A DNA stretch of 64,000 nucleotides from assembly GCF_000151205.2 (NCBI RefSeq), contig NC_016051.1, positions 1,364,001 to 1,428,000 on the forward strand. The letters are read 5' to 3'. The translations under genes were made by a program, and so were the position numbers. Below, piece by piece: positions 27,389 to 41,600 of the stretch. Each line of letters starts with the position of its first letter. The stretch's first letter is position 1. The notes below the pieces were generated by a model, which had not been told where the DNA came from, searched no databases, and worked only from the letters and a program-made list of their open reading frames with translations. This stretch comes from Thermococcus sp. AM4. GTDB taxonomy: Archaea > Methanobacteriota_B > Thermococci > Thermococcales > Thermococcaceae.

Positions 27389-27964
27389 TCATATCCTTGG
27401 CAGTAACCCCCTATACAGCGTTGACATAATTTCGCGGTGCTTGATGTGTTTTGCTAAATCTTCGGGGCCGTTAATTTCCATCACCTTGAATGAGCGCTTT
27501 ATTATCCGGGCTACACGAAGGGAAGCCCAGAGGTTGATCGCAAGAGGGGCCAATACAACAACCAGGGACTTCAGGGATAACCCGCATAGGAACCACTGAA
27601 GAGCCAAAAATCCCACTGAACTCCCCACGGCCGTAAACTTTGCCATCTCCTCAAGCCTCCAAAACAGCCGGTGGGCATTGCATCCAAGCCACAGCGCAAA
27701 AAGAATTAGCCCACCTGTTACAAGTATACACAGGAACACAAAGGCCCAGAAGTGTCCGGCCAAAGAGCCAATCCCAAGTAAAGCCGGCAGATAAAACCAA
27801 GTCCACACCATGAGCATCCAGGGTACACCGACTCCCGTCCCTATCAACAGCCCAAGGAGCCTGTTATCCACCTCTGCCCCAACAGGTCGAAGTTCTAAAG
27901 CCTTCCCGATCAGGTAAATATCGAAAATGAAAATAAGCCAGGAGGACAACACTAAACACCCCAT
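27389..27964 (-). CDS. Island membrane protein, family A copy 1
   Basis: About 191 residues with around five membrane spans. Family A is marked by an N-terminal span ending D-x-Y-L-x-x-K-x-x-x-x-R-P-(V/I) (here IFDIYLIGKALELRPV) and a C-terminal cytosolic-looking tail with NLWASLRVARIIKRSFK and INGPEDL. ATG 27964 is preceded by GGGGGGTGATTG; directly above lies the 27-base D-N-N-L-I-C-G-G scar (27970-27996). Candidate immunity-type protein (inference). Confidence 0.72.
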   Translation of the reverse strand: MGCLVLSSWLIFIFDIYLIGKALELRPVGAEVDNRLLGLLIGTGVGVPWMLMVWTWFYLPALLGIGSLAGHFWAFVFLCILVTGGLILFALWLGCNAHRLFWRLEEMAKFTAVGSSVGFLALQWFLCGLSLKSLVVVLAPLAINLWASLRVARIIKRSFKVMEINGPEDLAKHIKHREIMSTLYRGLLPRI

Positions 27965-27969
27965 AACAA

Positions 27970-27996
27970 TCACCCCCCACAGATCAGGTTGTTGTC
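27970..27996 (-). repeat. Effector C-terminal tail scar ahead of family A copy 1
   Basis: Codes D-N-N-L-I-C-G-G-stop, nearly identical in bases to the in-frame end of the large protein at 36136-36162, but here in the +1 frame of the upstream gene, whose own stop (27995-27997) lies at the scar's first codon. It also contains the Shine-Dalgarno of the next gene. Confidence 0.7.
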
Positions 27997-28516
27997 ACTT
28001 CTCCACCGTGAGTTTATACCACCACCAAAGGATCACGACATAGGAGAGCAAGTAGGGAGAGAGGGTTGATAAGCCTATAACAACAACCTGTAAAATTAAC
28101 AGAATCTTCACGGTATTCTCACTAAACAAACTTTGGGGTAACGCCTTGGCCATGGAATCATCGTTTAAAATCATGAGAACAAAAAGACCGACAACACCAA
28201 GGGACTCATGACCATTGAGCAAAAGCAGGAGAACAACCGGAGGAAGGTATGAAAACACCAAAAATCCCCTTAAATCCAACTGCTTCTTGGTAGGGAATAC
28301 TCTGCGAATAAACACATCTCCCATGGCCAATGCCCATGCCAAAACAGACATATATCCTACCTTGATATCAATAGGAGTCCCGTATCTGAGAGATAAAATG
28401 AACGACGACCATGCGATCAAAGTCAGTGCTAGTCCCATGATACCACTCAGAATAACACCAAGTCCAACTATAACAAGAACAAATAGGAAGATGGAGAGAT
28501 TCAGCACATCAATCAT
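27995..28516 (-). CDS. Island membrane protein, family B copy 1
   Basis: About 173 residues, five to six spans. Family B is marked by the N-terminus (I/N)(D/E)VLNLSIFL and the C-terminal SYVVILWWWYKLT. ATG 28516 follows GGGGTGAT. Its C-terminus (KLTVEK) is shorter than in copy 2 and abuts the tail scar. The upstream gene ends ...RGNNYGQG within its leader. Function unknown. Confidence 0.7.
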   Translation of the reverse strand: MIDVLNLSIFLFVLVIVGLGVILSGIMGLALTLIAWSSFILSLRYGTPIDIKVGYMSVLAWALAMGDVFIRRVFPTKKQLDLRGFLVFSYLPPVVLLLLLNGHESLGVVGLFVLMILNDDSMAKALPQSLFSENTVKILLILQVVVIGLSTLSPYLLSYVVILWWWYKLTVEK

Positions 28517-28521
28517 CGAAA

Positions 28522-29070
28522 TCACCCCTGACCGTAGTTGTTACCCCGCTGATACTCCGGTCTTTCATTGTGCACCACCGTTATTTCGCCGTCAATCAAC
28601 TGCAAAAGGCTCATAGCACAGTATAAAACAAAAAAGGAATACGTCAGAGGAAGTAGAGGATACTTGTAATATATCACCCACGCAAGAGCAGTTAACAATG
28701 TATAATAGAGGGTAGCCACCCTTGCTATCTTACGGGGTTGTTGTCTTAGTATTAAGGCTATTGCAACTTCAGTTGCTATGAATATTGCTGTTGTATAAAC
28801 CACAAATGACTTAAATCCAGAGCTGAGGTCGAGCACTTTAATTGCGATTAAAAACATAAAGGGATAAAGAAGAAGGTCATTAAGATTGTACCACAAGGGC
28901 ATCCTCCTGCTTGGAGCCACAAGATACATCCCGATAACCCATAAGAATACCCCAATGAAGGTATAACCCCAGAATTCAGAGTCATTAACTCTAACTTGAT
29001 ACGCTGAATACAAGAGTACTGAAACATTAAGGAGGAGAGAAAACCTAAAGGCTCTAGAGGAATTAATCAC
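28522..29070 (-). CDS. Island membrane protein, six-span type
   Basis: 182 residues with about six spans, starting at a GTG (29070) behind GGAGGATGAT. It ends in EYQRGNNYGQG, a divergent form of the island's short C-terminal motif. No family recognised; first gene after the gap holding the transposon relic. Confidence 0.68.
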   Translation of the reverse strand: MINSSRAFRFSLLLNVSVLLYSAYQVRVNDSEFWGYTFIGVFLWVIGMYLVAPSRRMPLWYNLNDLLLYPFMFLIAIKVLDLSSGFKSFVVYTTAIFIATEVAIALILRQQPRKIARVATLYYTLLTALAWVIYYKYPLLPLTYSFFVLYCAMSLLQLIDGEITVVHNERPEYQRGNNYGQG

Positions 29071-29103
29071 ACTATCATCCTCCTATCACATTTCACATCA
29101 CAT

Positions 29104-29226
29104 TATTCCTCTCACCATCTGAAGGCGTTGATGCCCTAGCCATTTAGGGCGTCCTTAAAGCCCAACCCCACGAAATTAAGATCTAAGAGGGGAGTAAGCC
29201 TTAGCCGCTACGTCTCCCCTCACAGT
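29104..29226 (+). pseudogene. Degenerate tail of an IS605-type TnpB gene
   Basis: On the plus strand one frame reads DALAI-stop-GVLKAQPHEIKI-stop-EGSKP-stop-PLRLPSQFTP, resembling the C-terminal tail of archaeal TnpB proteins, with stops interrupting it. The segment also contains two hairpins: GATGCCCTA...TAGGGCGTC (29131-29154) and GAGGGGAG...CTCCCCTC (29187-29221 region), as expected for the right end and associated RNA of IS200/605 elements. A relic, not an intact element; recognised by eye only. Confidence 0.4.
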
Positions 29227-29412
29227 TCACTCCCATAATTTCCAGTTGCCCTTTATATTCAACCACTCTTGAAGTACCGAATCTGTTATACCTTTAACTT
29301 TTAATATTTTTGTCTGCTTCTTTGTAGCGAGGGATACCACCTCCTCCAACTCTACCACTGACATTATCAATAAACACGGCTCTAGCCTATAGTTTTTTTC
29401 TAGGCCATTCAC
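29227..29412 (-). CDS. Small ORF, possible gene remnant
   Basis: 61 codons from a GTG at 29412, just below the broken family D copy. Mixed polar/hydrophobic, no span, no known motif. It occupies the place where the large protein follows gene D at 38082, and the sequence around its start (CTTAAC-GGTGAC) is related to the start of that gene (CTTAACAGTGAC), so it may be what is left after recombination. Expression doubtful. Confidence 0.3.
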   Translation of the reverse strand: MNGLEKNYRLEPCLLIMSVVELEEVVSLATKKQTKILKVKGITDSVLQEWLNIKGNWKLWE

Positions 29413-29425
29413 TGTGTTGTCACCG

Positions 29426-29740
29426 TTAAGATCTCCTAAACCTATTGTTTCTCTTTGTTGTATTGCCGAGTACTCCTAGCGGCAATAGGGGGTTCCTAAC
29501 AGCGTACACGAATGGATAAAACCCAAAAATTGGCAGCACATCGTGCACCCATTTAATTTCTTCCTCATCCCTTGCCAGGTAATAGCCAGCAAAGAGGAAG
29601 GGTAGAATTACCGTCGAAAACAGTGCTCCAGCGGCTATCCCATCTTCGTTGCCCGAGACCGCCACTATTATCTGAAACGTGGAGATCATTAAAAGTTCAG
29701 GAAAAATAAGGGGAGAGAAACACGCATGCTTATCTTCATA
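29426..29740 (-). pseudogene. Broken copy of family D membrane protein
   Basis: Bases 29485-29680 match 38465-38660 at all but about two positions, and both outer ends align too, but about 320 bases of the middle of the intact gene are missing, and a one-base deletion near the start puts the original ATG out of frame. An 87-codon frame (29426-29689) remains. Very recent duplication followed by deletion. Confidence 0.75.
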
Positions 29741-29896
29741 TCATCACCCTCAATCACCTATATCAAGATTGTTATCCATTTAAATCACTCTCGGCGTTTA
29801 CCGAAGCTAGATTTCAACAAGTAATAAAGAATGAAAGTGCGAATATAGACATATCAGACAAACCACAGACCATGCTGGACTTCATAAGTGCATTTA
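29690..29896 (-). other. Gap with decayed sequence
   Basis: About 200 AT-rich bases between family A copy 2 and the broken D copy. Apart from the D 5' end and the tail scar it holds no open frame; probably remains of a deleted cassette. Confidence 0.45.
29750..29776 (-). repeat. Effector C-terminal tail scar ahead of the broken D copy
   Basis: Reads D-N-N-L-D-I-G-D-stop on the minus strand in a gap between genes, followed by GGGTGAT and the former D start. Same position and form as other tails of the island but with no coding sequence attached. Confidence 0.55.
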
Positions 29897-30412
29897 CTAG
29901 TTGGGATTATAAGGAGATGCTTCCTTTAAGCCTTTGTTGATTGTCTCGGCGAATTTGAGTGACATCAGTAAGTACAAGACCACAGGAATTGTTAGTGAGA
30001 CGACAGACACTACTGTTTCATTCTCGCATACTATTTTGAACGTGGCCAAGAGCATTATTGTGTTCCCAAGAGCGTTTAGCTTAACAATAGTTCTAAGTCT
30101 CCCAAGGAGTTTGGGTGCCGCGTTTTGGATTTTGACAATCATCAGGATTATTACTGAGAACCACACAAGCACCATTATCACTCCCATTTCAGGGGGAACA
30201 AAGTCTAGTTTCCCGTTATCTGCGAGAACTATCATCGAGGCGAGCCCTGTGACGCTCCAAGGAATTATAATTGTGTCACCTAGAAACTCAACTGTTTTTC
30301 GTTCCAATTCTTTTCGAATCGGTCGCAGTCCTTCGTATTTAGCAACCAGATAACCATCCACTAGCACTAAAAAAGATGTAAATAGGAAAAGCAAAGTTGC
30401 CCAACATGCCAT
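29897..30412 (-). CDS. Island membrane protein, family A copy 2
   Basis: About 171 residues, four to five spans, with the family A N-terminal mark (VDGYLVAKYEGLRPI) but a diverged C-terminus (LKFAETINKGLKEAS). ATG 30412 follows GGGGGGTGATTC; the frame above it to 30460 is open but includes the tail scar. Nearest to copy 3 (32588). Confidence 0.7.
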   Translation of the reverse strand: MACWATLLFLFTSFLVLVDGYLVAKYEGLRPIRKELERKTVEFLGDTIIIPWSVTGLASMIVLADNGKLDFVPPEMGVIMVLVWFSVIILMIVKIQNAAPKLLGRLRTIVKLNALGNTIMLLATFKIVCENETVVSVVSLTIPVVLYLLMSLKFAETINKGLKEASPYNPN

Positions 30413-30417
30413 CCGAA

Positions 30418-30444
30418 TCACCCCCCACAGATCAGATTGTTGTC
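30418..30444 (-). repeat. Effector C-terminal tail scar ahead of family A copy 2
   Basis: Codes D-N-N-L-I-C-G-G-stop with only single-base differences from the copies at 27970 and 36136, but shifted by one frame from the overlapping 93-residue gene, at a GAGAGAGA run where a two- or one-base slip could restore or break the frame. Confidence 0.7.
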
Positions 30445-30713
30445 TCTCTCCCGGGAACAAATAGAGGAGCTAAGCTGATGTAGCTGAAGAGTATTCTGGG
30501 CTTTAGTATTTCGAACGGATAGGAACGCTTGAAGGGGAGAGCCGCTAAAAGTGAGGGCACGAGCAATGCAAATAACATAATATGGATCCTGACGTTCCAG
30601 TAAATCTGCTCCTGATAGTTATCCACATATACAAAAAATCCTACTAATGTAACAAACAAGTAGCCCAAAATACAAAAAAGCAGGGAAAAAGTATAATGAT
30701 CTCGATTTCCCAT
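30432..30713 (-). CDS. Small three-span island membrane protein
   Basis: About 93 residues with three hydrophobic stretches. ATG 30713 follows GGAGGGTGAG. Its frame ends PGRETTI within the tail scar; a +1 shift in the GAGAGAGA run would instead give R-D-N-N-L-I-C-G-G, so this may be a frame-shifted longer protein end. Function unknown. Confidence 0.6.
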   Translation of the reverse strand: MGNRDHYTFSLLFCILGYLFVTLVGFFVYVDNYQEQIYWNVRIHIMLFALLVPSLLAALPFKRSYPFEILKPRILFSYISLAPLFVPGRETTI

Positions 30714-30718
30714 TTGTC

Positions 30719-30757
30719 TCACCCTCCTGTCACGTCATTTCCGTCAAATTCATTGTC
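30719..30757 (-). repeat. Tail-like coding scar after an in-frame stop
   Basis: Reads D-N-E-F-D-G-N-D-V-T-G-G-stop in the same frame as the upstream gene (30764-31381), right after its TGA and two codons. Matches the pattern of island tails (D-G-N-x-(V/I)-x-G-G). Confidence 0.5.
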
Positions 30758-30763
30758 AGGGGA

Positions 30764-31381
30764 TCACACATTGATCTTGTTCCAGTATTCTCCTCCTGCC
30801 CCGTTAGGGTCGCCGTCGTAATTGTCTACGGCATTCTTAAAACTAGTTTTAGCTTTGCGCACACTTTCACGCATTCTCAAGAGTCTTTTAACATCTTCAT
30901 AGAGCCACCAGAGCAAGATTCCATAGGATACCACAAGGAGTGTACGGAAGAGAAGGGCCACTAAAACTGCAGGAAGATACAGAAGGACAGTCAATGTTCT
31001 CTCCTGATGGCATATTATGCGAAAACCGTACCACAGGCCAAACCACAGGAAAACTCCTGCAAAGGCTATTGCTCCGTACTTCAGCGGCAATACTGTCAGG
31101 ACTGGAAGATATCCCAAGGAAACCAGGGAGCATGCAGATTCAACTTCCTTTCTCTGTATCCCCCTCAAAGACCAGATGAGACTTAACAGCGAGAGAGACA
31201 GCCAGAGTAAAAGTACTGCAATAAGGGCCATGATGTCATTGTTTTCGTGGCTAACTTTGACGAGATATAGGAAGGACACCACTATAACACCCATTCCAAT
31301 TATCGATTTGCGGTCTGAGATAAGAGCCCCAATCCCAAGGATAGCCCACAAAATAATGGAAATAAAAAGGAGAGCGTCCAC
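30764..31381 (-). CDS. Island membrane protein, loosely family B
   Basis: 205 residues, six to seven spans, GTG start at 31381 behind GGAGGGATGA. Shares with family B the SLGYLPVL segment and the last span ending ILLWWLYEDVKRLL, followed by a longer polar tail (DNYDGDPNGAGGEYWNKINV). A tail-like sequence continues in frame after the stop. Confidence 0.66.
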   Translation of the reverse strand: MDALLFISIILWAILGIGALISDRKSIIGMGVIVVSFLYLVKVSHENNDIMALIAVLLLWLSLSLLSLIWSLRGIQRKEVESACSLVSLGYLPVLTVLPLKYGAIAFAGVFLWFGLWYGFRIICHQERTLTVLLYLPAVLVALLFRTLLVVSYGILLWWLYEDVKRLLRMRESVRKAKTSFKNAVDNYDGDPNGAGGEYWNKINV

Positions 31382-31384
31382 CGT

Positions 31385-31930
31385 TCATCCCTCCTGCAAT
31401 GTCCTAGCTGCTTTGTATTTCCCCGCTGTTAGTTTATACCACCACCAGAGCAGTAGAGCATAGGAGAATACATAAGGGGATAAAGTTAGTAGCCCGACAA
31501 TCAAAATCTGAACCCCAATCGCAAAGGCTAAGACGGTTTTCTTGGAGGATTTGGAGAGAAAGCTCTGTGAAATTCTTTGTGTTGGTAAAAATAAAATTAG
31601 TAGCAGATAAAGGAGCCCAGCATACTGAGCTAACTCGTGCTCACTCGATATAAGGAATACTCCCACCAATGGAAGATACGAAAGAAGAAGCGCGCTTAGA
31701 CTATCGATCCTTTTATCTGGAAACAGCTTATACCACAGAGATAATACCAACGCCATCATCCAGAGGATGATTGACATATAAGCCACCCGGATGTCTGTTG
31801 TCCTGTTTCCCAAGGCCAATATGAACGATAGCCATGCCGCTACGCCAGAGAGACCCCCCACAATCCCACCAAATATAAAACTAACCACGAAGATTAGAAT
31901 CAATAAAAGAAAGATGGATAAATTCAACAC
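31385..31930 (-). CDS. Island membrane protein, family B copy 2
   Basis: About 181 residues, six spans, clear homologue of 27995 (VLNLSIFLLL at the start, ALLLWWWYKLT near the end). The GTG at 31930 is 5 bases after GGGGGGTGA; a GTG at 31939 lies inside that signal and is the alternative start. The bases just above read V-D-F-G-G-stop, again a Gly-Gly ending. Stop overlaps the Shine-Dalgarno of the next gene. Confidence 0.68.
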   Translation of the reverse strand: MLNLSIFLLLILIFVVSFIFGGIVGGLSGVAAWLSFILALGNRTTDIRVAYMSIILWMMALVLSLWYKLFPDKRIDSLSALLLSYLPLVGVFLISSEHELAQYAGLLYLLLILFLPTQRISQSFLSKSSKKTVLAFAIGVQILIVGLLTLSPYVFSYALLLWWWYKLTAGKYKAARTLQEG

Positions 31931-31968
31931 CTCGTTCACCCCCCCAAAGTCAACCTCTTACTTATATG

Positions 31969-32583
31969 TCAATTTCCATTATGTTGTGAATGTCTTTTGA
32001 GGATAATCAACGCAAGACTAGAATATAATAATGCCACTATCCATGCTAGACTACAGGACTCCCCAGAAAATGAATGAAACTCAATGCATGTGGTTACTGC
32101 AAACAATCCATTAAGCGTTATTGCTTCCCACTGAATACCGAGTTTTGTCGTCACAATGTGTACCACAATAATCGCACCTAACAATACTATGGCAATTTGT
32201 GAATGTACATTTAAGGCTAACGTTAATAGGATTACAACATAGTACCCCTCTCTATAACTTTTTTTGTGCCCAAGTTCATACGTGAAAATGTTGACTAACA
32301 ACGAGGCTACCGTAATTATTCCCACCACCTGAAAAATTCCCGAGGTCAGAGTAATCAGAAGGGTCGCAAATGGAATAAAAATTGAAGCGACAACAAAGGG
32401 ACATGCATCGCCTTTTTCAACCAACAAACCACCAATTGCGATAAATGGAATCGAAAGCAAGTTAAAGACCAAGACTGTGGTTAAGTCAAGTCTTGTAGTT
32501 GACATGATTATCAACAATGTTAAAAGAAGGGACAAAGAGAGAGATAACAGGAAAAAACCAGCCTTACTCATTTTGGCCCACAT
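31969..32583 (-). CDS. Island membrane protein, seven-span type
   Basis: 204 residues with about seven spans and short loops; ATG 32583 follows GGAGGGTGAT. No paralogue in the window and no family recognised. Notably AT-rich codons compared with the flanking core genes. Confidence 0.66.
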   Translation of the reverse strand: MWAKMSKAGFFLLSLSLSLLLTLLIIMSTTRLDLTTVLVFNLLSIPFIAIGGLLVEKGDACPFVVASIFIPFATLLITLTSGIFQVVGIITVASLLVNIFTYELGHKKSYREGYYVVILLTLALNVHSQIAIVLLGAIIVVHIVTTKLGIQWEAITLNGLFAVTTCIEFHSFSGESCSLAWIVALLYSSLALIILKRHSQHNGN

Positions 32584-32587
32584 TGTA

Positions 32588-33094
32588 TCACCCTCCCCAT
32601 AGGAGAGTTTGTTTTACGATCTTTAAATATCTCCGGGATAGCAAGGCATAGAGTACCAGCGGAATCATTATGCTGAGCAGAGCTCCTATTTCAACGACCC
32701 CACACAATGCCTTCAAAAAGGAGAAGGTGAAAACCGAGAGGACGAGAAGGTTGAACGCCACGACTTTCCCAGAGTTCTTGGCGATCTTCTCGGTGAGTCT
32801 CACGAATTTCTCCGGCTGGTTTTTAAACCTGACAAAAATAACCGTCGCGACGAAAGTTGCAATGAGAACTCCCAAAGCAGAGGGCAAGACGCTGTTATAC
32901 ACTATCGAAAGTATTAGGGTAATGTTTGGAATCAGTGGGAGGCCCGGAGAGACAACGATATCAACTCCGAGCTCTACAGCCTTTTTCTGAACTTCGCTCT
33001 TCACAGGTCTCATGCCCTCATACTTGAGGAATAGGTAAAGGTCCAATAAGAAAAACGAAAAGGAAAGGAGGAACAAGTACAGCCCGCACTCCAT
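32588..33094 (-). CDS. Island membrane protein, family A copy 3
   Basis: About 168 residues, around five spans, family A mark LLDLYLFLKYEGMRPV. Ends LLWGG. ATG 33094 follows GGGGGGTTG, in a leader that encodes the Gly-Gly end of the upstream gene. Confidence 0.7.
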   Translation of the reverse strand: MECGLYLFLLSFSFFLLDLYLFLKYEGMRPVKSEVQKKAVELGVDIVVSPGLPLIPNITLILSIVYNSVLPSALGVLIATFVATVIFVRFKNQPEKFVRLTEKIAKNSGKVVAFNLLVLSVFTFSFLKALCGVVEIGALLSIMIPLVLYALLSRRYLKIVKQTLLWGG

Positions 33095-33095
33095 T

Positions 33096-33539
33096 TCAAC
33101 CCCCCTCACTATGGTATTTTTTCAATTCCCGCCTAACATATTCCATAAGCAACACCGCAATACTCCCAAGCACGAGGTTGGGGACGAACAGATCCCGGTC
33201 ATTGAACGTGCTCAAAGCCAGCAATGGGAACAGTATCTCGAAAACAACGTATATGACCCCTGCCAGCCTTGGAACCCAGCTAAACCTAGTAAAAACCCTG
33301 TAGAGAATATATGCCACAACTATTCCAAATAAGACCAGATTCGGGTCTTCGGGAGGGTACATAGAAGCAATTCCCGACAGAGAGATTTCAAGGCTCAAGA
33401 TCGGAAGAGTAGAAAGCAATACTCTCTGTCTCCACGAATCCCCAATGAAAAGCTTACCAATTATCAAAATCACCACAAAATATATCACAAAAAACCAAAA
33501 GAGCTCAAAGACAAAGACCGCCCAAACCCCACTATTCAT
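33096..33539 (-). CDS. Island membrane protein, four-span type
   Basis: 147 residues with about four spans; starts at ATG 33539 behind GGGGGTTATTCC and ends KKYHSEGG, whose Gly codons form the Shine-Dalgarno of the next gene. No family recognised. Confidence 0.66.
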   Translation of the reverse strand: MNSGVWAVFVFELFWFFVIYFVVILIIGKLFIGDSWRQRVLLSTLPILSLEISLSGIASMYPPEDPNLVLFGIVVAYILYRVFTRFSWVPRLAGVIYVVFEILFPLLALSTFNDRDLFVPNLVLGSIAVLLMEYVRRELKKYHSEGG

Positions 33540-33613
33540 GGAATAACCCCCACACTTTCAACGTTGAGCTTTTAGTAGTCTACTGGTGACAATAAGAATC
33601 ACCTCTGGAGCTT

Positions 33614-34201
33614 TCATGTTCTTTGTTTATAGGTTCTTCTCCTTATCCTCAGCCACCACCTACATAGAGGATCCTTCACGACATAATTCTTCAAATCCTC
33701 GGAACCGTTAATTCCGCTCGCCTTGAACGAGAGCTTCAGCGTACGAACTATGCGGAGAGAAGCCCAGAGGTGAACCACAAGGGGGAACAGTAAGGCAACC
33801 ACTGACGCCAAAGACCACCCATACAGGATTACGTAAAGAGTAAGAAACCCCAACGCAGTTCCAATGGCAGTAAACTTGAGCAGTCCCTCAAGCCTCCAAA
33901 ACACCAAATGAGCACTACACGACAACTTAAAATTCAACAGACCTAAGACCACCATCATGAGGATGTACAAAAATACAAAGACTCCAAAATGCGTGGCTAA
34001 TGGCCCAACCCCATATATAGTCGGAAAAGAAATCCAGCTAAAAAGCACAAGCATCCAAGGTAGGAGAACACTAAGACTAGTAAAGGTTCCAACGAGCATA
34101 TAATCTACCTTTGCCTTAATCGGCCGAAGTTCTAAAGCCTTCCCAATCCAGTAAATATCAAAAACAAAAATAAGCCAAGAGGATAACACCAAGTAATTCA
34201 T
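33614..34201 (-). CDS. Island membrane protein, family A copy 4
   Basis: About 195 residues, five spans, mark FDIYWIGKALELRPI. The last 40 residues (WASLRIVRTLKLSFKASGIN and on) are nearly identical to copy 5; at DNA level 33655-33771 matches 35581-35697 with about six differences. ATG 34201 follows GGGGGTGATT. A tail-like scar (34207-34245) lies directly above. Confidence 0.72.
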   Translation of the reverse strand: MNYLVLSSWLIFVFDIYWIGKALELRPIKAKVDYMLVGTFTSLSVLLPWMLVLFSWISFPTIYGVGPLATHFGVFVFLYILMMVVLGLLNFKLSCSAHLVFWRLEGLLKFTAIGTALGFLTLYVILYGWSLASVVALLFPLVVHLWASLRIVRTLKLSFKASGINGSEDLKNYVVKDPLCRWWLRIRRRTYKQRT

Positions 34202-34206
34202 CCCAA

Positions 34207-34245
34207 TCACCCCCTACCGATCATGTTTCCGTCGTTTTCATCCGG
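34207..34245 (-). repeat. Effector tail-like scar ahead of family A copy 4
   Basis: Reads P-D-E-N-D-G-N-M-I-G-R-G-stop in the gap above copy 4, in a 19-codon frame not joined to any gene. Same shape as the other tails, with different bases, so the likeness is at the protein level. Confidence 0.5.
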
Positions 34246-34292
34246 GCACACTGAGTTAGAGTTGTACTAATCTAAACTACCATCAGCCAAAA

Positions 34293-34523
34293 TTACCTCT
34301 CCTTCTCACCCCTTTTTAGGGCAACAAAATCATCTGATGGATACACTAACATCCAGAGGTACACAACTATCGTTGTCACTACAAATAAAATACACAGGGA
34401 TATAAAGAGATCCACTGTGGATATATCCCTAAAACCCGTAAAAAGATAAACTAAAAGGACGGAGATAGCGTAAGTTTGGAGGACACAGCGAAGGGAGAAC
34501 TTAGAGCATTTAGGAATCTTCAT
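34293..34523 (-). CDS. Small two-span protein paired with tip cassette 34520
   Basis: 76 residues, two spans. Related to the 64-residue protein at 34814 (MK-x-PK...GFR-x(2)-S near the middle, second span, acidic end). Its ATG overlaps the stop of the tip cassette (ATGA), so the two are translated together. An immunity-type partner is the natural guess (inference). Confidence 0.65.
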   Translation of the reverse strand: MKIPKCSKFSLRCVLQTYAISVLLVYLFTGFRDISTVDLFISLCILFVVTTIVVYLWMLVYPSDDFVALKRGEKER

Positions 34524-34765
34524 GGCTCATCCCCCACTATGAGATTATTGTCACCAAGGTTGTCGGAAGGTAATGGCTTCATGCTCTCAATTAATGCCCA
34601 TCCGTATATAGTAAGGAGCAATACAAAAGGATTTGTCTCTACTGAGATTTTTCCTGTAATAATCATTGCGGCTACTTTGCTTGACGTACCCCAAGGATCA
34701 TTTTCAATTTCATTTACAACGTAGTCTTTAACCTCTTTGATTATCCCCCTTTCCATGGGATCCAT
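34520..34765 (-). CDS. Tip-only effector-like cassette ending GDNNLIVGDEP
   Basis: About 81 residues. It begins (MDPMERG) where the shared module of the larger proteins ends (MNPMDLGD in 35005), then has an amphipathic and a hydrophobic helix and ends in PLPSDNLGDNNLIVGDEP. It looks like a free-standing variable tip of the large island proteins. ATG 34765 follows GTGATACAA. Followed with a 4-base overlap by a two-span protein. Confidence 0.62.
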   Translation of the reverse strand: MDPMERGIIKEVKDYVVNEIENDPWGTSSKVAAMIITGKISVETNPFVLLLTIYGWALIESMKPLPSDNLGDNNLIVGDEP

Positions 34766-34813
34766 TTGTATCACGAACCCTACTGACTTGTGTAGGATTC
34801 ATCTGTGTGCTTT

Positions 34814-35008
34814 TTAATCAACTGGTATTAGCAGATAGGCAACTAGTATCAGTCCAGCAAATATCAGAAAGACAAAGTGAACTCCAAATAAGACTTCAGG
34901 GATACTTGTATTTCTAAATCCGTCTGTGTTTATAACTGCAATGGACCATACAAAAATATAAAGAATAATAAGCCATCTAAGAAGGATTTTAGGGACCTTA
35001 AGTTTCAT
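34814..35008 (-). CDS. Small two-span protein paired with cassette 35005
   Basis: 64 residues, two spans, homologue of 34293. ATG overlaps the stop of 35005 (ATGA). The repeat of the arrangement [cassette ending GDNNLIVGDE + small two-span protein] argues for cognate pairs. Confidence 0.65.
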   Translation of the reverse strand: MKLKVPKILLRWLIILYIFVWSIAVINTDGFRNTSIPEVLFGVHFVFLIFAGLILVAYLLIPVD

Positions 35009-35556
35009 GACTCATCACCTACTATTAAATTATTGTCTCCAGAATCACTCGGAGGTATCGGTTTAGTCCCTTCATAGGCTAAATAAATCAAAAATCCAAT
35101 AATAATTCCTAGGGAAACATATGCGCTCAAAGCCTCTATTCCAGCGGCTGTAAGAGCCCCCGCTAGTGTAGCTTCCTCATTTGATGCGAAGTAGGTTAAA
35201 GCTCCTGCTATTCCGCTTCCAATACCAACTGCAATTTCTTTTTCAGGCAATGAAAAATCACCAAGATCCATTGGGTTCATCTCTATCACATGCATTACTG
35301 GCTCTCTTTTCTGATTTATATAGACTTTGATAGCTACTGGTCTTCCGAAATTCATGTCACTCAAGTCCACGGGCACTTTCTTCTGGAGCTCATCTTTAAT
35401 CGGTATTGTAAAGGTAAAAGTTCCCGAAGAGCCGGGGTTTAGAGACAAGACATCCGGAGCCGGAACTACCAAATTGCCGCCCTCACTACTGTCGTATACC
35501 TTGCCCCCTGCAAAGTCTCCAAAATTATCTATCTGCATCACCGCCCAATTTTCCAT
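35005..35556 (-). CDS. Module-plus-tip effector-like cassette ending GDNNLIVGDES
   Basis: Up to 183 residues. Residues about 38-95 match the C-terminal module of the large proteins (LSLNPGSSGTFTFTIPIKD ... VMHVIEMNP), then a Gly/Ala-rich hydrophobic tip (VGIGSGIAGALTYF ... GIIIGFLIYLAYEG), a Pro/Ser linker and the tail. No signal peptide. The first Met (35556) overlaps family A copy 5; an ATG at 35538 sits at GGGCGGTG, so the start is uncertain. Confidence 0.62.
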   Translation of the reverse strand: MENWAVMQIDNFGDFAGGKVYDSSEGGNLVVPAPDVLSLNPGSSGTFTFTIPIKDELQKKVPVDLSDMNFGRPVAIKVYINQKREPVMHVIEMNPMDLGDFSLPEKEIAVGIGSGIAGALTYFASNEEATLAGALTAAGIEALSAYVSLGIIIGFLIYLAYEGTKPIPPSDSGDNNLIVGDES

Positions 35557-36130
35557 CGGGTTGGCTTCTCCGCTCTAACCACCACCTACATAGAGGATCT
35601 CCAACGACGTAATTCTTCAAATCCTCGGGACCGTTAATTCCGCTCGCCTTGAACGAGAGCTTCAGCGTACGAACTATGCGGAGAGAAGCCCAGAGGTAAA
35701 TTCCAATAGGGATTAGTACAACTAGCACGTCCAAGAAAGATAAGCCACCCCCGATTAGTCCGACTAGAAGTAGGAGACCAACTGCACTTCCTAAGGCGGT
35801 GCCCTTGATTATTCCCTCAAGATCCCAGAAAAACTTTGGAGCCTCACAAGTCAGTCTGATTGACAGCCATATTAGTCCCGCCACCAAAAACAGAACAAAT
35901 ATAAGTGCAACTGCAGGGGAAACCCATGTAACATTTTCGGACTCAACTGGCAGTACTATCCAACATAATCCCACCACCTCCCAAGGTAAAACAACCACAT
36001 AGCGAACAATGGCTTCCACATCCTTTCCACTAACAGCCCCCTTAACAGGACGCACTTCAATGGCCTTTCCGATAAGATAAACATCAAGCATGAAAAAAAG
36101 GAAAACAGAGACTACCCCTATCCCGAGCAT
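35525..36130 (-). CDS. Island membrane protein, family A copy 5
   Basis: About 201 residues, five spans, mark LDVYLIGKAIEVRPV. The end reads QPDGKLGGDADR, with the Shine-Dalgarno of the next cassette inside. C-terminal 117 bases shared with copy 4. ATG 36130 follows GGGGGGTGATCC, which is the end of the large protein (GDNNLICGG). So family A copy 5 sits right behind an intact tail, the arrangement from which the scars at 27970 and 30418 would derive. Confidence 0.72.
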   Translation of the reverse strand: MLGIGVVSVFLFFMLDVYLIGKAIEVRPVKGAVSGKDVEAIVRYVVVLPWEVVGLCWIVLPVESENVTWVSPAVALIFVLFLVAGLIWLSIRLTCEAPKFFWDLEGIIKGTALGSAVGLLLLVGLIGGGLSFLDVLVVLIPIGIYLWASLRIVRTLKLSFKASGINGPEDLKNYVVGDPLCRWWLERRSQPDGKLGGDADR

Positions 36131-36135
36131 CTGGA

Positions 36136-38082
36136 TCACCCCCCACAGATCAGGTTGTTATCACCTTCGTACAGTGAGCAAATTCTGGGCGGGGCTGAAA
36201 AGGTTCTATATTCGTCAATAGCAATTCCAAGTCCCAGAACAATTACCCCAATAGCTTCCAGTCCAAAAGAGAGAACAAGTACAAAGCTGATAACGGTGAT
36301 TATCCCACCAATAACCGATAGCCCAATTGAAAGATAGTCAAGACTGTCTTTCTTTATACCTACTGGTATCATTGTGACAACCTGTCCCACGTTCTGAGTC
36401 TTATTGCCAAGCTGGAGTCCAACGCTGACCATGTATTCCAGCGGTTTTCCTTCGTCATCATAGAACAGGTACTTGTAGTCAACCCTACCATATATCTCCT
36501 CTGACAGCTTACTTAGATCAACGTGCACCGAAATGTGACCCATAGACTGTCTCTTCACAGTCATTCCAGTGAGACCACCGTCGACATAGTCAATATCCAC
36601 TGCATCATAGTGTCTATCCTCGCCCCAGATCTCGTAGCCTCCAAGCATAACCTTGGTGAGCCTGACGGGAACGTCAACGGGCCCATCGTTTTTTACATAG
36701 ACAGTACAATAGAGATGATTTCCAGTCTCGCCGACATAGACTATTCCATTGTCCTGACTGTTGCATTCCATCCACGCCCAGACTGGGCCACCGGGGGTAG
36801 TGTTCACGGTAAGGACGTCTCTATTTTTATTATTGACATCAAAGTAAAGGTAATACATGCCCGGATCATTAAAGTGAAGTCCAAACCAATCTCTGAACTC
36901 AAAAGCATACTGATTTCCAACCCAGACCAATGGAAGGTCATTGAACTTAATACCGTTCCTATTGAAAACCCAGACTCCACTATAAAATATCCCTCTAGGG
37001 GACTGATACGTGTATCTAACCGTTATGGGAACGTACTCGTTCTTGAGTTTCCCATAGTAATCCGCCGCAAGAGTGATGTTCAGGAAGGTACCCTGCGTAA
37101 CAGTCAGGTGGTTGGCCTGGGATCCTCCAGTGAGGAAGCGGCCGGTGTAATCATCGCCTTCACTGATGTGAAGATACACCGTCTTCTTGTCGAGTACCTC
37201 AGTGCCCCTGATCAGCCCAACGGTAACCTCGTAATCTCCCGCCTTAGCGTTCCTCCAGCGGAAAACATAGAACGGGTCAATGTTCTTAATGTTCCCGGAG
37301 TCCAACTTAACGGAATTCCCGAAAACCAAGGATGAAGTTTTAACGTCCCTAACAACGACTGAGAGCTCAAGATCCTCCTGCTCCGAGTTCACAGAAACAG
37401 GTACGAGGGCATCCGGACCAAAGTTGTTCCTGAATACAGTGTTTTTGGCAACGGAGTCCGGCACAAAACTGTAAACGTAATAGGGATAAACTATGATGAC
37501 CACGTCGTCATGTTCCTCGGGATTCGCCGGGAAGATCTGAAGGCCCTTGATGGCCAGATTCTTCTGGAGGACCAGCCTCGTCACCTCAACCGAACCGCTG
37601 TCCTTCACTTCCATCCCCTTGAAGGAGAACGTAGCAAAGTACTCGTAGGTGCCGGCTTTAAGATAGGTGACGTTCCCGACCTGAATAACGACGTTCTCAT
37701 CGGGGTTTAGGGTAACCGTTTTCCTGTTTAGGAGGACCAGCCGCTCGGAGTTCTCCTCGGGAACGGCCGCGAAGAATGAAAGGGTTCCGTTTACAGCCTT
37801 TGGACTATCGTTCCTCAGCCGGACGGCAAAGCCAACACTCTGACCCTCGGTTATCTTAGTTGCGTTCTTTCCGGCTTCAACTATCTTCTCAAGTCTTGTT
37901 TGTTCCTTTACTGTGAACACATCACTAACAGCTATCCCGTTGCTGAACTTTACCTTGATTAGGTAGGAATAGCCCTCAAACCTGTTCTTAGAGCTCCCTT
38001 TGAAGACCCATCTGTCAATCGGATCCCAAGGTCTTTCACCAAAGTAATAATCAGCCAGTTTGTCATTAATTGTAATAGTCAC
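36136..38082 (-). CDS. Large beta-sandwich island protein ending GDNNLICGG
   Basis: 648 residues, GTG start (38082) behind GGAGGACTTAAC. It lacks a signal peptide: the N-terminus (TITINDKLADYYF ... VSDVFTVKE) corresponds to the C-terminal module of the protein at 38775 (TLTINDTLANYYF ... VSDVITLTE), so the gene begins inside a module. Several Ig/CARDB-like beta-sandwich segments with sequons follow, then a second copy of the module, a Gly/Ile/Val-rich hydrophobic tip of about two spans (LSIGLSVIGGIITVISFVLV), and the tail. The 5' half is more GC-rich than the 3' half, a mosaic. Effector-like surface protein (inference). Confidence 0.68.
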   Translation of the reverse strand: MTITINDKLADYYFGERPWDPIDRWVFKGSSKNRFEGYSYLIKVKFSNGIAVSDVFTVKEQTRLEKIVEAGKNATKITEGQSVGFAVRLRNDSPKAVNGTLSFFAAVPEENSERLVLLNRKTVTLNPDENVVIQVGNVTYLKAGTYEYFATFSFKGMEVKDSGSVEVTRLVLQKNLAIKGLQIFPANPEEHDDVVIIVYPYYVYSFVPDSVAKNTVFRNNFGPDALVPVSVNSEQEDLELSVVVRDVKTSSLVFGNSVKLDSGNIKNIDPFYVFRWRNAKAGDYEVTVGLIRGTEVLDKKTVYLHISEGDDYTGRFLTGGSQANHLTVTQGTFLNITLAADYYGKLKNEYVPITVRYTYQSPRGIFYSGVWVFNRNGIKFNDLPLVWVGNQYAFEFRDWFGLHFNDPGMYYLYFDVNNKNRDVLTVNTTPGGPVWAWMECNSQDNGIVYVGETGNHLYCTVYVKNDGPVDVPVRLTKVMLGGYEIWGEDRHYDAVDIDYVDGGLTGMTVKRQSMGHISVHVDLSKLSEEIYGRVDYKYLFYDDEGKPLEYMVSVGLQLGNKTQNVGQVVTMIPVGIKKDSLDYLSIGLSVIGGIITVISFVLVLSFGLEAIGVIVLGLGIAIDEYRTFSAPPRICSLYEGDNNLICGG

Positions 38083-38084
38083 TG

Positions 38085-38720
38085 TTAAGTCCTCCTAAAC
38101 CTATTGTTTCCCTTTTGTTGTATTGTCGAGTCCCTCTTGGTGGCATAGTGAATCATTACAAACACGGCAAATCCGAAGATGAATCCCATGCTGAGCACGA
38201 GATAGTCTATCTTGTGGGTTTGATTTACAAACACCCATAAGATTACATACGACGCTATATACTGAAGTTCCAGCCTTTCTCTGAAGGTGTAGAATGCTAA
38301 AGACAGGAGTATTAGCCCTATCACTATGAGGCTCTTATTTGATATGCCGAGACACGCCAACAGTGAAAGGGCTAAAACGATAGAATTGGCCTGATTATCC
38401 TTAAACCCGTAATACCTCGCCATGAGCACTGGAATCAAAATGATTAAACCCGCCAAAATCCAAGATAGGGGGTTCCTAACAGCGTACACGAATGGATAAA
38501 ACCCAAAAATTGGCAGCACATAGTGCACCCATTTAATTTCTTCCTCATCCCTTGCCAGGTAATAGCCAGCAAAGAGGAAGGGTAGAATTACCGTCGAAAA
38601 CAGTGCTCCAGCGACTATCCCATCTTCGTTGCCCGAGACCGCCACTATTATCTGAAACGTAGAGATAACTAAAAGCCCAGGGAAGATAAGGGGAAGGGAA
38701 ACACGCATGCTTACTCCCAT
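38085..38720 (-). CDS. Island membrane protein, family D, intact copy
   Basis: 211 residues, six to seven spans. ATG 38720 follows GGAGGGTAATGAC. Ends QQKGNNRFRRT. A broken, nearly identical duplicate lies at 29426-29740. Two bases separate its stop from the GTG of the large protein at 38082. Function unknown; immunity-type candidate for the upstream large protein (inference). Confidence 0.7.
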   Translation of the reverse strand: MGVSMRVSLPLIFPGLLVISTFQIIVAVSGNEDGIVAGALFSTVILPFLFAGYYLARDEEEIKWVHYVLPIFGFYPFVYAVRNPLSWILAGLIILIPVLMARYYGFKDNQANSIVLALSLLACLGISNKSLIVIGLILLSLAFYTFRERLELQYIASYVILWVFVNQTHKIDYLVLSMGFIFGFAVFVMIHYATKRDSTIQQKGNNRFRRT

Positions 38721-38724
38721 GTCA

Positions 38725-38757
38725 TTACCCTCCAGCTATAGAGTTATTATCATTTTC
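38725..38757 (-). repeat. Out-of-frame effector tail behind the first large protein
   Basis: Reads E-N-D-N-N-S-I-A-G-G-stop, preceded in the same frame by K-D-P-G-A-G. It is in the +1 frame relative to the large protein, whose own frame stops at 38775-38777 after EYYGE. A one-base change near the stop would append this tail to the protein. Confidence 0.6.
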
Positions 38758-38774
38758 TCCTGCCCCAGGATCCT

Positions 38775-40787
38775 TTATTCCCCGTAATACTCTCCCCATA
38801 AGTCCCAGAGGAATGTGCCTAGTGGTTTTACCACGTATTCCGTTGTTGCTACTCCAGCAATAAATATTGCTACAAATGGTAGTGAGAGGGGATTCGAAGC
38901 TGTAGCAAATGCAACTATTGCGCCTCCTATAAAGTCTGCGAATAAGCTGGGTAATCTATCCAACCAGTCTTCTTTTTTCTCTGTAAGTGTAATAACATCG
39001 GATACAGGGTAACTTAGGTTTGTTAAATGCACTTCTACAAGGTAAGAAGGGTTTTCTAACAGTTTATGAGTATACCCCCAATGATCAAAGTAGTAGTTCG
39101 CTAGTGTGTCGTTTATTGTGAGGGTTATTGTAAAAGTCTCCCGCATGTTGGTTGGGCTTAGCGTAATTCTCTGAGCTTCAACCCCAACACTACTGGGCCC
39201 ATCGGGCCACACTCTCCTCCCTCCAAAATCAATCTCTTTCAAGTTTAGTGTAACTGTATCAGCATTTCCAAGCTCGAAGTGAACAGTACACCGGGTTGAC
39301 CTGCCCAAGGGAACAACCGCAGGGTCGCACTTCATCACTGCCCTCACCGGGTTGTCGTCTATCACCGTCAGCTTGGAGGCCGCCACCTTATGCCCGTCCA
39401 CTTCCAAGTAGAACGTTACATTGTGGTTAACAACCGGGAGAAGTGTGCTGAGGGTGGCGTTGAAGCCGTAGTGGAGTCTAAGTATCCCATCAGTGTACAT
39501 GTAGCCCTCGCCCGTCTTCACATCTCTAGGCCCTTCAAAAGCTCTCCCCTTGTAAGGCCACCAAACAACGCCACGCTCATCAACTATCTCTACATCGTGA
39601 CCTTCCCAAATGCCAATTGACTTTGGTCTTGTGTCCCAAAGCTTGATTTTTACAGCTACCTTCTCTGTTTTTCCAATGTACGCGGTACTGGGGGAGAGCT
39701 CCAACCTTCCCAAAACCTTAAGCTTATCCCTGGCGCTATATGGGAGAACCAAAAGTTCTCCCACCTTAGAATCAACGTATCCCCCATATGAGTAAAGTTC
39801 AATACGATATGTATAACTACCTTCCAAACCGTCCCAGTAAAGGGTAAAAGTCTTCATTGAATGGGATTCAACAGTCCCATTTACCCAATATGCCAGTTCA
39901 CTGCCATATTTGCCATCGACGATCAACTTCAGGCTTATATCCTTAGTGGATCTGTACGAATTAACAACCGTTACGTTGAATTCCACTGAATCACTCTCAA
40001 AGATGGGAACCGGCCCAACCTCGACTTTACTTATTTTTAGTTCCCCTCCATCAACGGGGATCAATACAGTTACTTCTCCGCCATACTCCTTTTCAAACCC
40101 CCCAAAATCCAGAATTCCTGTGAATCCGTACGTGCCCGAGCCAAGGTATTCAACTGTGCCGAGATCAACTGAGATTTGAGAATTTGGCATAATGACGACT
40201 CTCGTGTGATTAACGACTTGTCTAGGAAGGTGATCGCCATCCAGTATAGTAAAGTAAAAGGTTAATGTACCCCTAATCGGGACGGAGTTGGAGTTTGAGA
40301 TCCTTGCAACATACTTAACTTTTCCTTCTGATATTTTGAGAGCCTGTATCTTAAGATCAACTTTTCCAGGATCAATCTTTGATGTCAAGTCAATAGTCCC
40401 GTGGTAGCTCTCCATCACGAGAACCGGTGCCGTGGGAGTGGAGTAATCCGCGGGGGTGTAGGCCTGAACCGAGGCGGTCTTAACGGGATCGCCGGGCTTG
40501 GAGTTGGGGGTGTCCCCACCGGGACTGGTCACCGAGCGGTAGCGAATCTTGACTATTCCGGAAACCGAAGCCTGAAGGGAGTTTCCAACGGGAGCGATGA
40601 ACTCCGGGCTCTCAACGCTCCCCGGGCCGGTGTAGGCGATGGTGCCCACGCTGAGAACCTTACTCTCGCTGCCGTCGTTGAACTTGACCCGGTCGATCAT
40701 AACCGCCCCACCATAGACGTAGTAGTCAACCCTAACGCGGTATTTGACCGAGAGCTTGTAGGATTTGCACCCACCAGATATAAACAC
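38775..40787 (-). CDS. Large beta-sandwich island protein, first gene of the array
   Basis: Up to 670 residues. CARDB/Ig-like beta-sandwich segments (LKISKVEVGPVPIFESDSVE, LKVLGRLELSPSTAYIGKTE), a Cys pair (CDPAVV...CTVHF), the shared C-terminal module (ITLSPTNMRETFTITLTIND ... VSDVITLTEKKEDW) and a hydrophobic tip (FIGGAIVAFATASNPLSLPF and VAIFIAGVATTEYVV). No signal peptide. The GTG at 40787 lies on a TATA-like box; an ATG at 40700 behind GGTGGGG is an alternative start. First 400 bases are GC-rich, the rest AT-rich. The tail motif follows out of frame. Confidence 0.66.
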   Translation of the reverse strand: MFISGGCKSYKLSVKYRVRVDYYVYGGAVMIDRVKFNDGSESKVLSVGTIAYTGPGSVESPEFIAPVGNSLQASVSGIVKIRYRSVTSPGGDTPNSKPGDPVKTASVQAYTPADYSTPTAPVLVMESYHGTIDLTSKIDPGKVDLKIQALKISEGKVKYVARISNSNSVPIRGTLTFYFTILDGDHLPRQVVNHTRVVIMPNSQISVDLGTVEYLGSGTYGFTGILDFGGFEKEYGGEVTVLIPVDGGELKISKVEVGPVPIFESDSVEFNVTVVNSYRSTKDISLKLIVDGKYGSELAYWVNGTVESHSMKTFTLYWDGLEGSYTYRIELYSYGGYVDSKVGELLVLPYSARDKLKVLGRLELSPSTAYIGKTEKVAVKIKLWDTRPKSIGIWEGHDVEIVDERGVVWWPYKGRAFEGPRDVKTGEGYMYTDGILRLHYGFNATLSTLLPVVNHNVTFYLEVDGHKVAASKLTVIDDNPVRAVMKCDPAVVPLGRSTRCTVHFELGNADTVTLNLKEIDFGGRRVWPDGPSSVGVEAQRITLSPTNMRETFTITLTINDTLANYYFDHWGYTHKLLENPSYLVEVHLTNLSYPVSDVITLTEKKEDWLDRLPSLFADFIGGAIVAFATASNPLSLPFVAIFIAGVATTEYVVKPLGTFLWDLWGEYYGE

Positions 40788-40806
40788 AGGAAAAAGTATT
40801 TAAAAC
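40777..40806 (-). promoter_or_regulatory. Promoter region of the island
   Basis: Two TATA-like boxes on the minus strand: GTTTTAAATAC (40796-40806) and TGTTTATATC (40777-40786). With a start about 25 bases below, transcripts would begin near 40776 or 40755, inside the longest frame of the first large protein, favouring its later start. No other clear promoter is seen until the end of the array. Confidence 0.45.
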
Positions 40807-40917
40807 TTTTTTCTATCTAAATTTTAATTACCACTTTTAGTAGTGTACAAAACTTGGAAAGTTTGATCAGCCAGAAAACCCCAAGCGAACACAAGGGAAC
40901 AAGGAAAACTGTGAAAT

Positions 40918-41568
40918 TCACTCAAAGAACTGGGAAACCTTGACCCTGTACTCCTTTCCGAGGAGCTCGGGATTGGCGGCCTTGTGAACGACGAGGACGA
41001 GCTCACCGCCGTCCAGATACCACTCGGTAACCGTGGTGGCGATCTCCTCGAACAGGGGCAGGAAAACAGGCTTGCTGCTCTCGATCGCGTCCTCGTTTAT
41101 GAGGTAGAAGGAAACTCTCCTGTCGTCCCCAACGAAGTAAGAGATCGTCGTGAGCAGCGACAGCATTTCCCTCTCGGAGAAGAGCATCGCCATCTTGTGC
41201 ACCCCAACGACGGGGTTGAAGTAGCGGCCGTTGGCCTCGCGGAACTTGTTAACCGAGTTCACGTAATGGCCGAAGGGTATGGAGTACTTATCAACTTCCA
41301 TCCTGCTTATTATCGTGCCCGCCTCGAGCTTGCCGCCACCGATCTTTATCACTATCGTCTCGTCCGTTGATAGGCCGAGCACTTCGAGAGACCTCGCGAG
41401 GGTCGGGTAGGTATCAAGGATGTCATCAACGAGGACGTGAAGGCCCTTCGATGAAGCGTAGTCGTGGAGGAGCTTGAGGAACAGCTCGGGATACGAGTTC
41501 GAGGAATACTCCACGAGCACGGTCTCGCCGAATTTAAGCCCCGAGAAGAAGGACTCCAGCTCCCTCAC
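40918..41568 (-). CDS. DUF257 family protein
   Basis: About 216 residues of DUF257, a Thermococcales family with a RecA/KaiC-like outline but no Walker A. Typical segments: GETVLVEYSSNSYPELFLKLL at the N-terminus, LHVLVDDILDTYPTL, and a C-terminal GGELVLVVHKAANPELLGKEYRV. Function unknown. GTG 41568 follows GGGTGATCC; a GTG at 41577 lies within that signal. Divergent from tldD. Confidence 0.85.
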   Translation of the reverse strand: MRELESFFSGLKFGETVLVEYSSNSYPELFLKLLHDYASSKGLHVLVDDILDTYPTLARSLEVLGLSTDETIVIKIGGGKLEAGTIISRMEVDKYSIPFGHYVNSVNKFREANGRYFNPVVGVHKMAMLFSEREMLSLLTTISYFVGDDRRVSFYLINEDAIESSKPVFLPLFEEIATTVTEWYLDGGELVLVVHKAANPELLGKEYRVKVSQFFE

Positions 41569-41600
41569 CCGGATCACCCATAGAGAAGACGAACTTCAAA

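Follow-up and report, generated by a model that had tools for sequence, protein, structure and literature searches.

A degraded VARTIG locus in Thermococcus sp. AM4, with variable protein tails and putative immunity partners

The 64,000-nucleotide stretch of Thermococcus sp. AM4 analysed here (the window) carries, at positions 27389-40806, an island of minus-strand genes with little spacing between them and a GC content of 0.446, against 0.559 in the remainder of the window. We regard it as practically certain that this is a degraded locus of VARTIG (VARiable Thermococcales IG), an archaeal module already described by Makarova et al. 2021 (PMC8416519), and not a new kind of system. The original prediction, made from the letters of this stretch, had recognised the one-directional, packed and AT-richer island, and had called the system undescribed, which the 2021 publication contradicts.

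The island encodes two large beta-sandwich proteins, whose immunoglobulin (Ig)/CARDB-type domains were confirmed on relatives, a pair of C-terminal fragments and some 13 small membrane proteins, which are hydrophobic and fall into few families. We refer to the long Ig protein as the trunk, to its C-terminal part as the tip, to the variable end as the tail and to the membrane gene downstream as the partner; tail classes (T) and partner families (n) follow one numbering, which derives from the clustering of tails and next genes described below. The membrane paralogues comprise five n2, three n0 and two n3 copies (one of the latter truncated) and single n1, n4, n6 and n11 genes. Both this paralogy and the reuse of only the C-terminal part of a large protein, seen in the fragments 35005-35556 and 34520-34774, had been noticed in the original prediction, as had a recent internal duplication, which corresponds to a direct repeat (29485-29714 and 38465-38694, 96% identity over 230 nt). 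The true starts are mostly ATG right after GGTGAT (27964, 28516, 30412, 34201 and 36130); the GTG and TTG starts initially listed were rejected because they often lie inside the Shine-Dalgarno sequence or 5' of it. Within the island the motif DNNxxxG[GD] occurs three times in frame, and three further copies are clearly recognisable out of frame. The features are as follows:

40800..40830, minus strand, trunk promoter box TTTAGATAGAAAAAAGTTTTAAATA joined directly to mid-trunk; sole occurrence of the pattern in the window on both strands
38775-40787, minus strand, trunk, arCOG07710-like, 670 aa, with T4 tail FLWDLWGEY; N-terminal domain and signal peptide deleted, as judged from homology and the retained promoter
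38085..38720, minus strand, n3 membrane protein, partner of T4 tails; the same family follows T4 tails in G011, G020 and G025
36136-38082, minus strand, mosaic Ig protein, 648 aa: tip end, mid-trunk Ig domains and T5 tail ending ICSLYEGDNNLICGG
35525..36130, minus strand, n2 membrane protein, partner of ICGG-type tails
35005-35556, minus strand, C-terminal tip fragment with glycine-rich hydrophobic tail, end DNNLIVGDES
34814..35008, minus strand, n4 short two-span partner
34520-34774, minus strand, tip fragment, tail only, class T3, end DNNLIVGDEP
34293..34523, minus strand, n11 short two-span partner
33614..34201, minus strand, n2 partner without tip, after a degenerate motif; 91.7% to the G007 copy
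33096..33539, minus strand, n6 partner of T7 tails; T7 tail not found in the genome
32588..33109, minus strand, diverged n2 membrane protein without tip
31969..32583, minus strand, hydrophobic island protein, 204 aa; one partial relative, in the G030 island
31385..31939, minus strand, n0 partner of T2/T6 tails, without tip
30764..31381, minus strand, n0 partner of T2/T6 tails, without tip; modelled by AlphaFold as all helical
30432..30722, minus strand, island protein, C-terminally truncated at junction 30460: 96 aa, where relatives have 222-237 aa
29897..30412, minus strand, n2 partner after out-of-frame DNNLICGG remnant (30444-30418); 94% to the G007 copy
29426..29689, minus strand, truncated duplicate of the n3 gene; 96% over 230 nt
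28522..29070, minus strand, n1 partner of T0 (NWLRAPTP) tails; NWLRAPTP-type tail not found in the genome
27995..28516, minus strand, n0 partner of T2/T6 tails, without tip
27389..27964, minus strand, n2 partner after out-of-frame DNNLICGG remnant (27996-27970)

As published, VARTIG is restricted to Thermococcales and comprises a long Ig-domain protein at the 5' end (arCOG07710) and shorter C-terminal homologues (arCOG14200); the proteins end in DNNxxxG[GD], the neighbouring genes encode membrane proteins, and the content is hypervariable (PMC8416519). The window locus is likewise confined to Thermococcales and forms a one-directional row with a long Ig protein at its 5' end, smaller C-terminal homologues, the DNNxxxG[GD] end, downstream genes that mostly encode membrane proteins and an order that differs between relatives; the gene at 38775-40787 stands first in the row and is homologous to open reading frames (ORFs) of 1045-1140 aa. 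It differs from the published loci in that its trunk has lost the N-terminus, and in its internal duplication, whereas PMC8416519 reports no recombination within loci. The islands from which VARTIG was discovered are those of Thermococcus sp. AM4, TAM4_RS07620-RS07720 and TAM4_RS09285-RS09405 (PMC8416519). Since the present genome also holds two islands, the second at ~C1:1693000-1704000 and encoding a 1046-aa relative of the 670-aa protein, and since their positions stand in the same ratio (1.6935/1.3914 Mb = 1.217) as the locus-tag numbers (9285/7620 = 1.218), the window island is almost certainly one of the two behind the VARTIG paper. No later functional paper on VARTIG was found in our literature search.

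Relatives of the trunk occur in 39 of the 61 genomes of the genus as ORFs of roughly 850-1140 aa, which usually precede, on the same strand, shorter ORFs matching their C-terminal part only. Of the 115 genomes searched in the phylum, 51 matched a profile of the trunk N-terminus; these 51 all belong to the family of the window, and they cover 5 of 12 genera. In one relative, G007, the flanks are syntenic with those of the window (82% and 86.5%) and enclose 3.5 kb, as opposed to 12.4 kb in the window, and the blocks common to both islands lie in shuffled order at up to 94% identity. Island content therefore varies between relatives at one fixed chromosomal site. This comes close to the cross-genome comparison that the original prediction had proposed as its own check, and the outcomes named there as refuting did not occur: at one and the same site the tips differ from relative to relative, and nothing matched a family of transporters or pili. 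A DUF257 gene (40918-41577) adjoins the island and also lies beside the VARTIG loci of G007 and G055, which suggests a conserved site.

The two large beta-sandwich proteins had been predicted to be without signal peptides. Both were found, but the 670-aa one has lost its N-terminus and is not naturally signal-less. From query residue 14 on, it is 65% identical to a section of a trunk ORF of 1045 aa in G043, and most full-length trunk relatives begin with a hydrophobic signal-like N-terminus. These relatives have in common a promoter box, [AG]ATAGAAAA..TTTTA, the strict form of which lies 47-53 nt 5' of 11 of 21 signal-peptide trunks; in the window gene the box is kept, 30 nt before mid-trunk sequence. 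Because the trunk promoter box now abuts mid-trunk, an internal deletion must have taken the N-terminal domain along with the signal peptide. At its 3' end, the same gene carries a frameshift right before DNNSIAGG, and the motif survives out of frame at ~38751-38728. In the 648-aa protein (36136-38082), residues 4-65 match a tip C-terminal region and residues 71-203 match mid-trunk, so that the gene is a fusion between a tip end and mid-trunk Ig domains; ICGG-type tails like its own occur in G007 and G059.

A complete trunk had been envisaged elsewhere in the genome. The search with the trunk N-terminal profile found none: only positions 147-286 were matched, in the second island, and the trunk encoded there, the sole other one, itself misses the signal peptide and the first ~147 profile positions. 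In its ORF (L041 1208-4255) the first ~120 residues are unrelated to other trunks. The signal peptide is thus absent from both trunks of the genome by deletion. In the published set a signal peptide was predicted for just 19/30 members, and fragments and pseudogenes were reported as well (PMC8416519), so that the signal peptide is not strictly defining for VARTIG.

The association between tails and downstream genes was analysed on 53 DNNxxxG[GD] sites in ~58 loci. One clustering was made of the 70 residues that precede the motif and a separate one of the next protein, and pairs of units with the same tail from different genomes were compared with shuffles. The next-gene family was common to such pairs in 67 cases (shuffle mean 16.3, maximum 35). 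Among units with a measurable gene+2, the next-gene family matched in 55 of 81 (shuffle mean 12.4, maximum 27) and gene+2, the distance control, in 12 of 81 (shuffle mean 7.9, maximum 23), which is background. Merging near-identical units left 45 matches of 72 (shuffle mean 10.0, maximum 25), a value reached by 0 of 5000 shuffles. Tail class and the immediately downstream membrane gene hence travel together as a two-gene cassette. Two examples of tail/neighbour association had been given in PMC8416519, and what is new here is the test of this pairing with a distance control; the polymorphic-toxin-like layout originally predicted, with variable tips paired to membrane proteins, is supported. 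Separately, an n0 partner in L068 (2013-2621) seemingly continues, in one frame, the end of a tail of the DWLFGP type (VHDWFFAPKPSDGDSNNIVGG), as a fusion protein.

The junction within these cassettes is compact. The G[GD] codons of the motif usually double as the Shine-Dalgarno sequence of the next gene (GGnGGTGA; e.g. 36162-36130, 35037-35005 and 34552-34520 in the window), the next start commonly falls -4 to +6 nt relative to the end of the tip stop codon, and the GG and GD ends are one GGTGAT in two reading frames. Synonymous codons are freely used at DNN, which suggests selection on the protein there, and the conservation of the last two residues may be owed to the translation signal. We infer that this overlap qualifies the published interpretation of DNNxxxG[GD] as a 'sorting signal' (PMC8416519). 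A role of DNNxxxGG as a dedicated recombination site was also considered and was not supported: upstream edges of shared blocks are enriched at the motif (22/53 against 4.8 expected, maximum 12) and also at partner starts without motif (20/69 against 6.3 expected, maximum 15), so that the motif was not shown to be special.

Partners frequently stand alone. A tip ORF precedes 34 of the 114 partner homologues and a motif remnant another 11, whereas the other 69 have neither before them. In the window, the DNNLICGG before each of the partners 27389 and 29897 is out of frame with the preceding gene, and neither T7 nor NWLRAPTP tails were found in the genome, though their partners n6 (33096) and n1 (28522) are present. 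The T2 tail of the n0 partners is represented in the genome by Ig-region matches and one short tail remnant only, and in the second island a short, broken T2-type remnant lies directly 5' of an intact n0 gene. Such one-sided decay, in which tips are broken and partners kept, is the appearance expected of a retained immunity bank, without being proof of one.

The tails themselves are, as a set, enriched in glycine-zipper spacing. Glycine zippers had 66 matches in 37 tails (37 in shuffles, maximum 57) and GxxxG-like spacings 124 (92 in shuffles, maximum 115); repeated [GAS]xxxGxxxG in hydrophobic C-termini is enriched over shuffles in the set as a whole and absent from some tail classes. The Pfam glycine-zipper-2TM family matched the second island's trunk at 22.6 bits, below its cut-off of 24.2, and CARDB matched that trunk above cut-off. 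A full-length relative of 1091 aa was modelled with AlphaFold2 (mean predicted local distance difference test score (pLDDT) 78.9). In the model the N-terminal domain (~34-360) consists mainly of helices; a disordered linker follows, then beta-sandwiches arranged in a row (~412-1013), and finally a tail of low confidence that contains short helices (1023-1053). The model of an n0 partner is all helical (mean pLDDT 79.8), with no solved-structure match below E 0.001. A PDB sequence search with the trunk profile gave nothing significant, Pfam, NCBIfam, PADLOC and PHROGs gave nothing convincing for the large and membrane proteins of the window, and the PADLOC, NCBIfam and Pfam scans returned no toxin domain or toxin/immunity family apart from the sub-threshold glycine-zipper match.

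Three functional hypotheses were put forward in PMC8416519, a polymorphic toxin and self/non-self recognition or adhesion among them, and the main objection raised there to a toxin was the failure to find any toxin domain. The explanation we favour, and hold to be somewhat better than an even bet, is a degraded VARTIG locus in which the tail is a putative membrane-acting toxin and the partner a putative immunity protein. An intact VARTIG locus would encode a long secreted protein, with a signal peptide, a helix-rich N-terminal domain and five to six Ig-like domains, ending in a short variable tail, often hydrophobic and glycine-rich. This tail would depolarise neighbouring Thermococcales cells by inserting into their membrane, and the downstream membrane protein would confer immunity against that tail; whether such a membrane-acting tail and membrane immunity protein are the actual mechanism we consider evenly balanced. 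The present strain has lost the secreted part through deletion or frameshift, and the partner set kept would serve as an immunity bank against relatives still making those tails. In broader form, VARTIG would be an archaeal polymorphic toxin system with depolarising glycine-zipper tails and cognate membrane immunity, and strains like this one immunity-only defenders after trunk loss, a generalisation that we advance tentatively and would not yet bet on.

Other functions could be assigned to the same genes. If the variable C-terminal Ig domain were a displayed epitope and the membrane proteins its matching receptors or anchors, the locus would serve in self/non-self recognition or adhesion, as proposed in PMC8416519; the Ig-array architecture, with local structural similarity to adhesin-type arrays such as PrgB, agrees with this, and the pairing would equally fit ligand and receptor. 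We consider this unlikely, given that the pairing was measured on the tail and not on the Ig domain, that partners are kept without a matching tail in the genome, which is odd for a matched pair, and that the tails have glycine-zipper spacing. The Ig array could also act in a complement-like innate defence that binds diverse attackers, in the manner of thioester-containing proteins (TEP), alpha2-macroglobulin or complement. Indeed, Foldseek matched the trunk model to tandem-Ig proteins, namely complement C3/C5 and alpha2-macroglobulin (E 4e-11 and weaker for these) and also PrgB among others, and an HHpred match to TEP was reported in PMC8416519. Whole-chain TM-scores by query length are nevertheless only 0.07-0.13, pointing to generic tandem beta-sandwiches, so that these matches are better taken as evidence of Ig arrays than of homology to complement; with no thioester domain reported for VARTIG (PMC8416519) and the paired membrane genes left without a role, such a defence is very improbable.

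The pairing data would be the same if the partner were a dedicated chaperone, anchor or export helper of its tail instead of an immunity protein. This seems quite unlikely, as 80 of the 114 partner homologues have no adjacent intact tip, and the partners 27389, 29897 and 38085 have kept an open reading frame next to a frameshifted or lost tip. The original suggestion that tips are stored silently in the island and feed a complete trunk located elsewhere in the genome is consistent with tip fragments that lack a secretion signal of their own. It has very little probability here, since the genome has no intact trunk and no recombination between loci of one genome was found in PMC8416519, and it could hold in strains with an intact trunk.

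Several observations weigh against the toxin and immunity explanation that we prefer. Some tails are not hydrophobic (class T7, L042 and L076; maximum 0.77), the tail region is of low confidence in the AlphaFold model, and searches with the partner genes yielded no known immunity family or fold. For some tip ORFs the partner is truncated or missing, although these ORFs are without a trunk and several are from draft genomes. Partners scored as having no motif may follow tips that lack it or that were missed by the search expression, and co-transfer of neighbours alone would give part of the correlation, an effect which the gene+2 control bounds and does not remove. Furthermore, toxicity and protection are predictions from sequence for VARTIG genes as a whole.

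Taken with the tip-less partners and the zipper enrichment of the tails, the pairing favours the published polymorphic-toxin hypothesis in a membrane-acting form. The conserved trunk with variable and orphan ends, and the end-specific partner immediately downstream, are features of bacterial polymorphic toxins such as contact-dependent inhibition (CDI)/CdiA, Rhs and LXG, in which a long exported protein has variable C-termini, orphan cassettes and adjacent as well as orphan partners; VARTIG differs in that we found no sequence homology to them and recognised no toxin domain or delivery machine. In the type VII secretion system (T7SS) of S. aureus, EsxX is a glycine-zipper membrane depolariser whose immunity is provided by the membrane proteins ExiCD, with orphan copies in antitoxin islands, and TspA is a toxin with membrane-bound immunity, TsaI (PMC12744356). 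VARTIG resembles both in combining tails that as a set are enriched in glycine-zipper spacing with membrane-protein partners, and orphan partner genes lie in islands in its case too. Unlike VARTIG, these systems are bacterial and LXG/T7SS-delivered, no homology to them was shown, and the activity of VARTIG is predicted. Glycine-zipper membrane action would answer the caveat that no nuclease-type toxin is present (PMC8416519). If true, it would imply that hyperthermophilic archaea have a weapon based on contact or on secretion. Our results give quantitative support to one of the three published hypotheses, in a sharper version that allows a specific and cheap test in a tractable genus.

Some minor features of the islands complete this description. 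The truncated 96-aa ORF (30432-30722) breaks off right at the start of the next cassette's DNNLICGG leader, and its longer relatives are found in L040 (10389-11096), L069 and L097. A TnpB/OrfB-like gene, as read from the sequence, lies ~1.4 kb off the second island (L041 5683-6759). Finally, past the truncated n3 copy, one minus-strand frame of 29360-29440 gives GDLNGDNTVNGLE, which resembles a dockerin-type repeat and is possibly a remnant.

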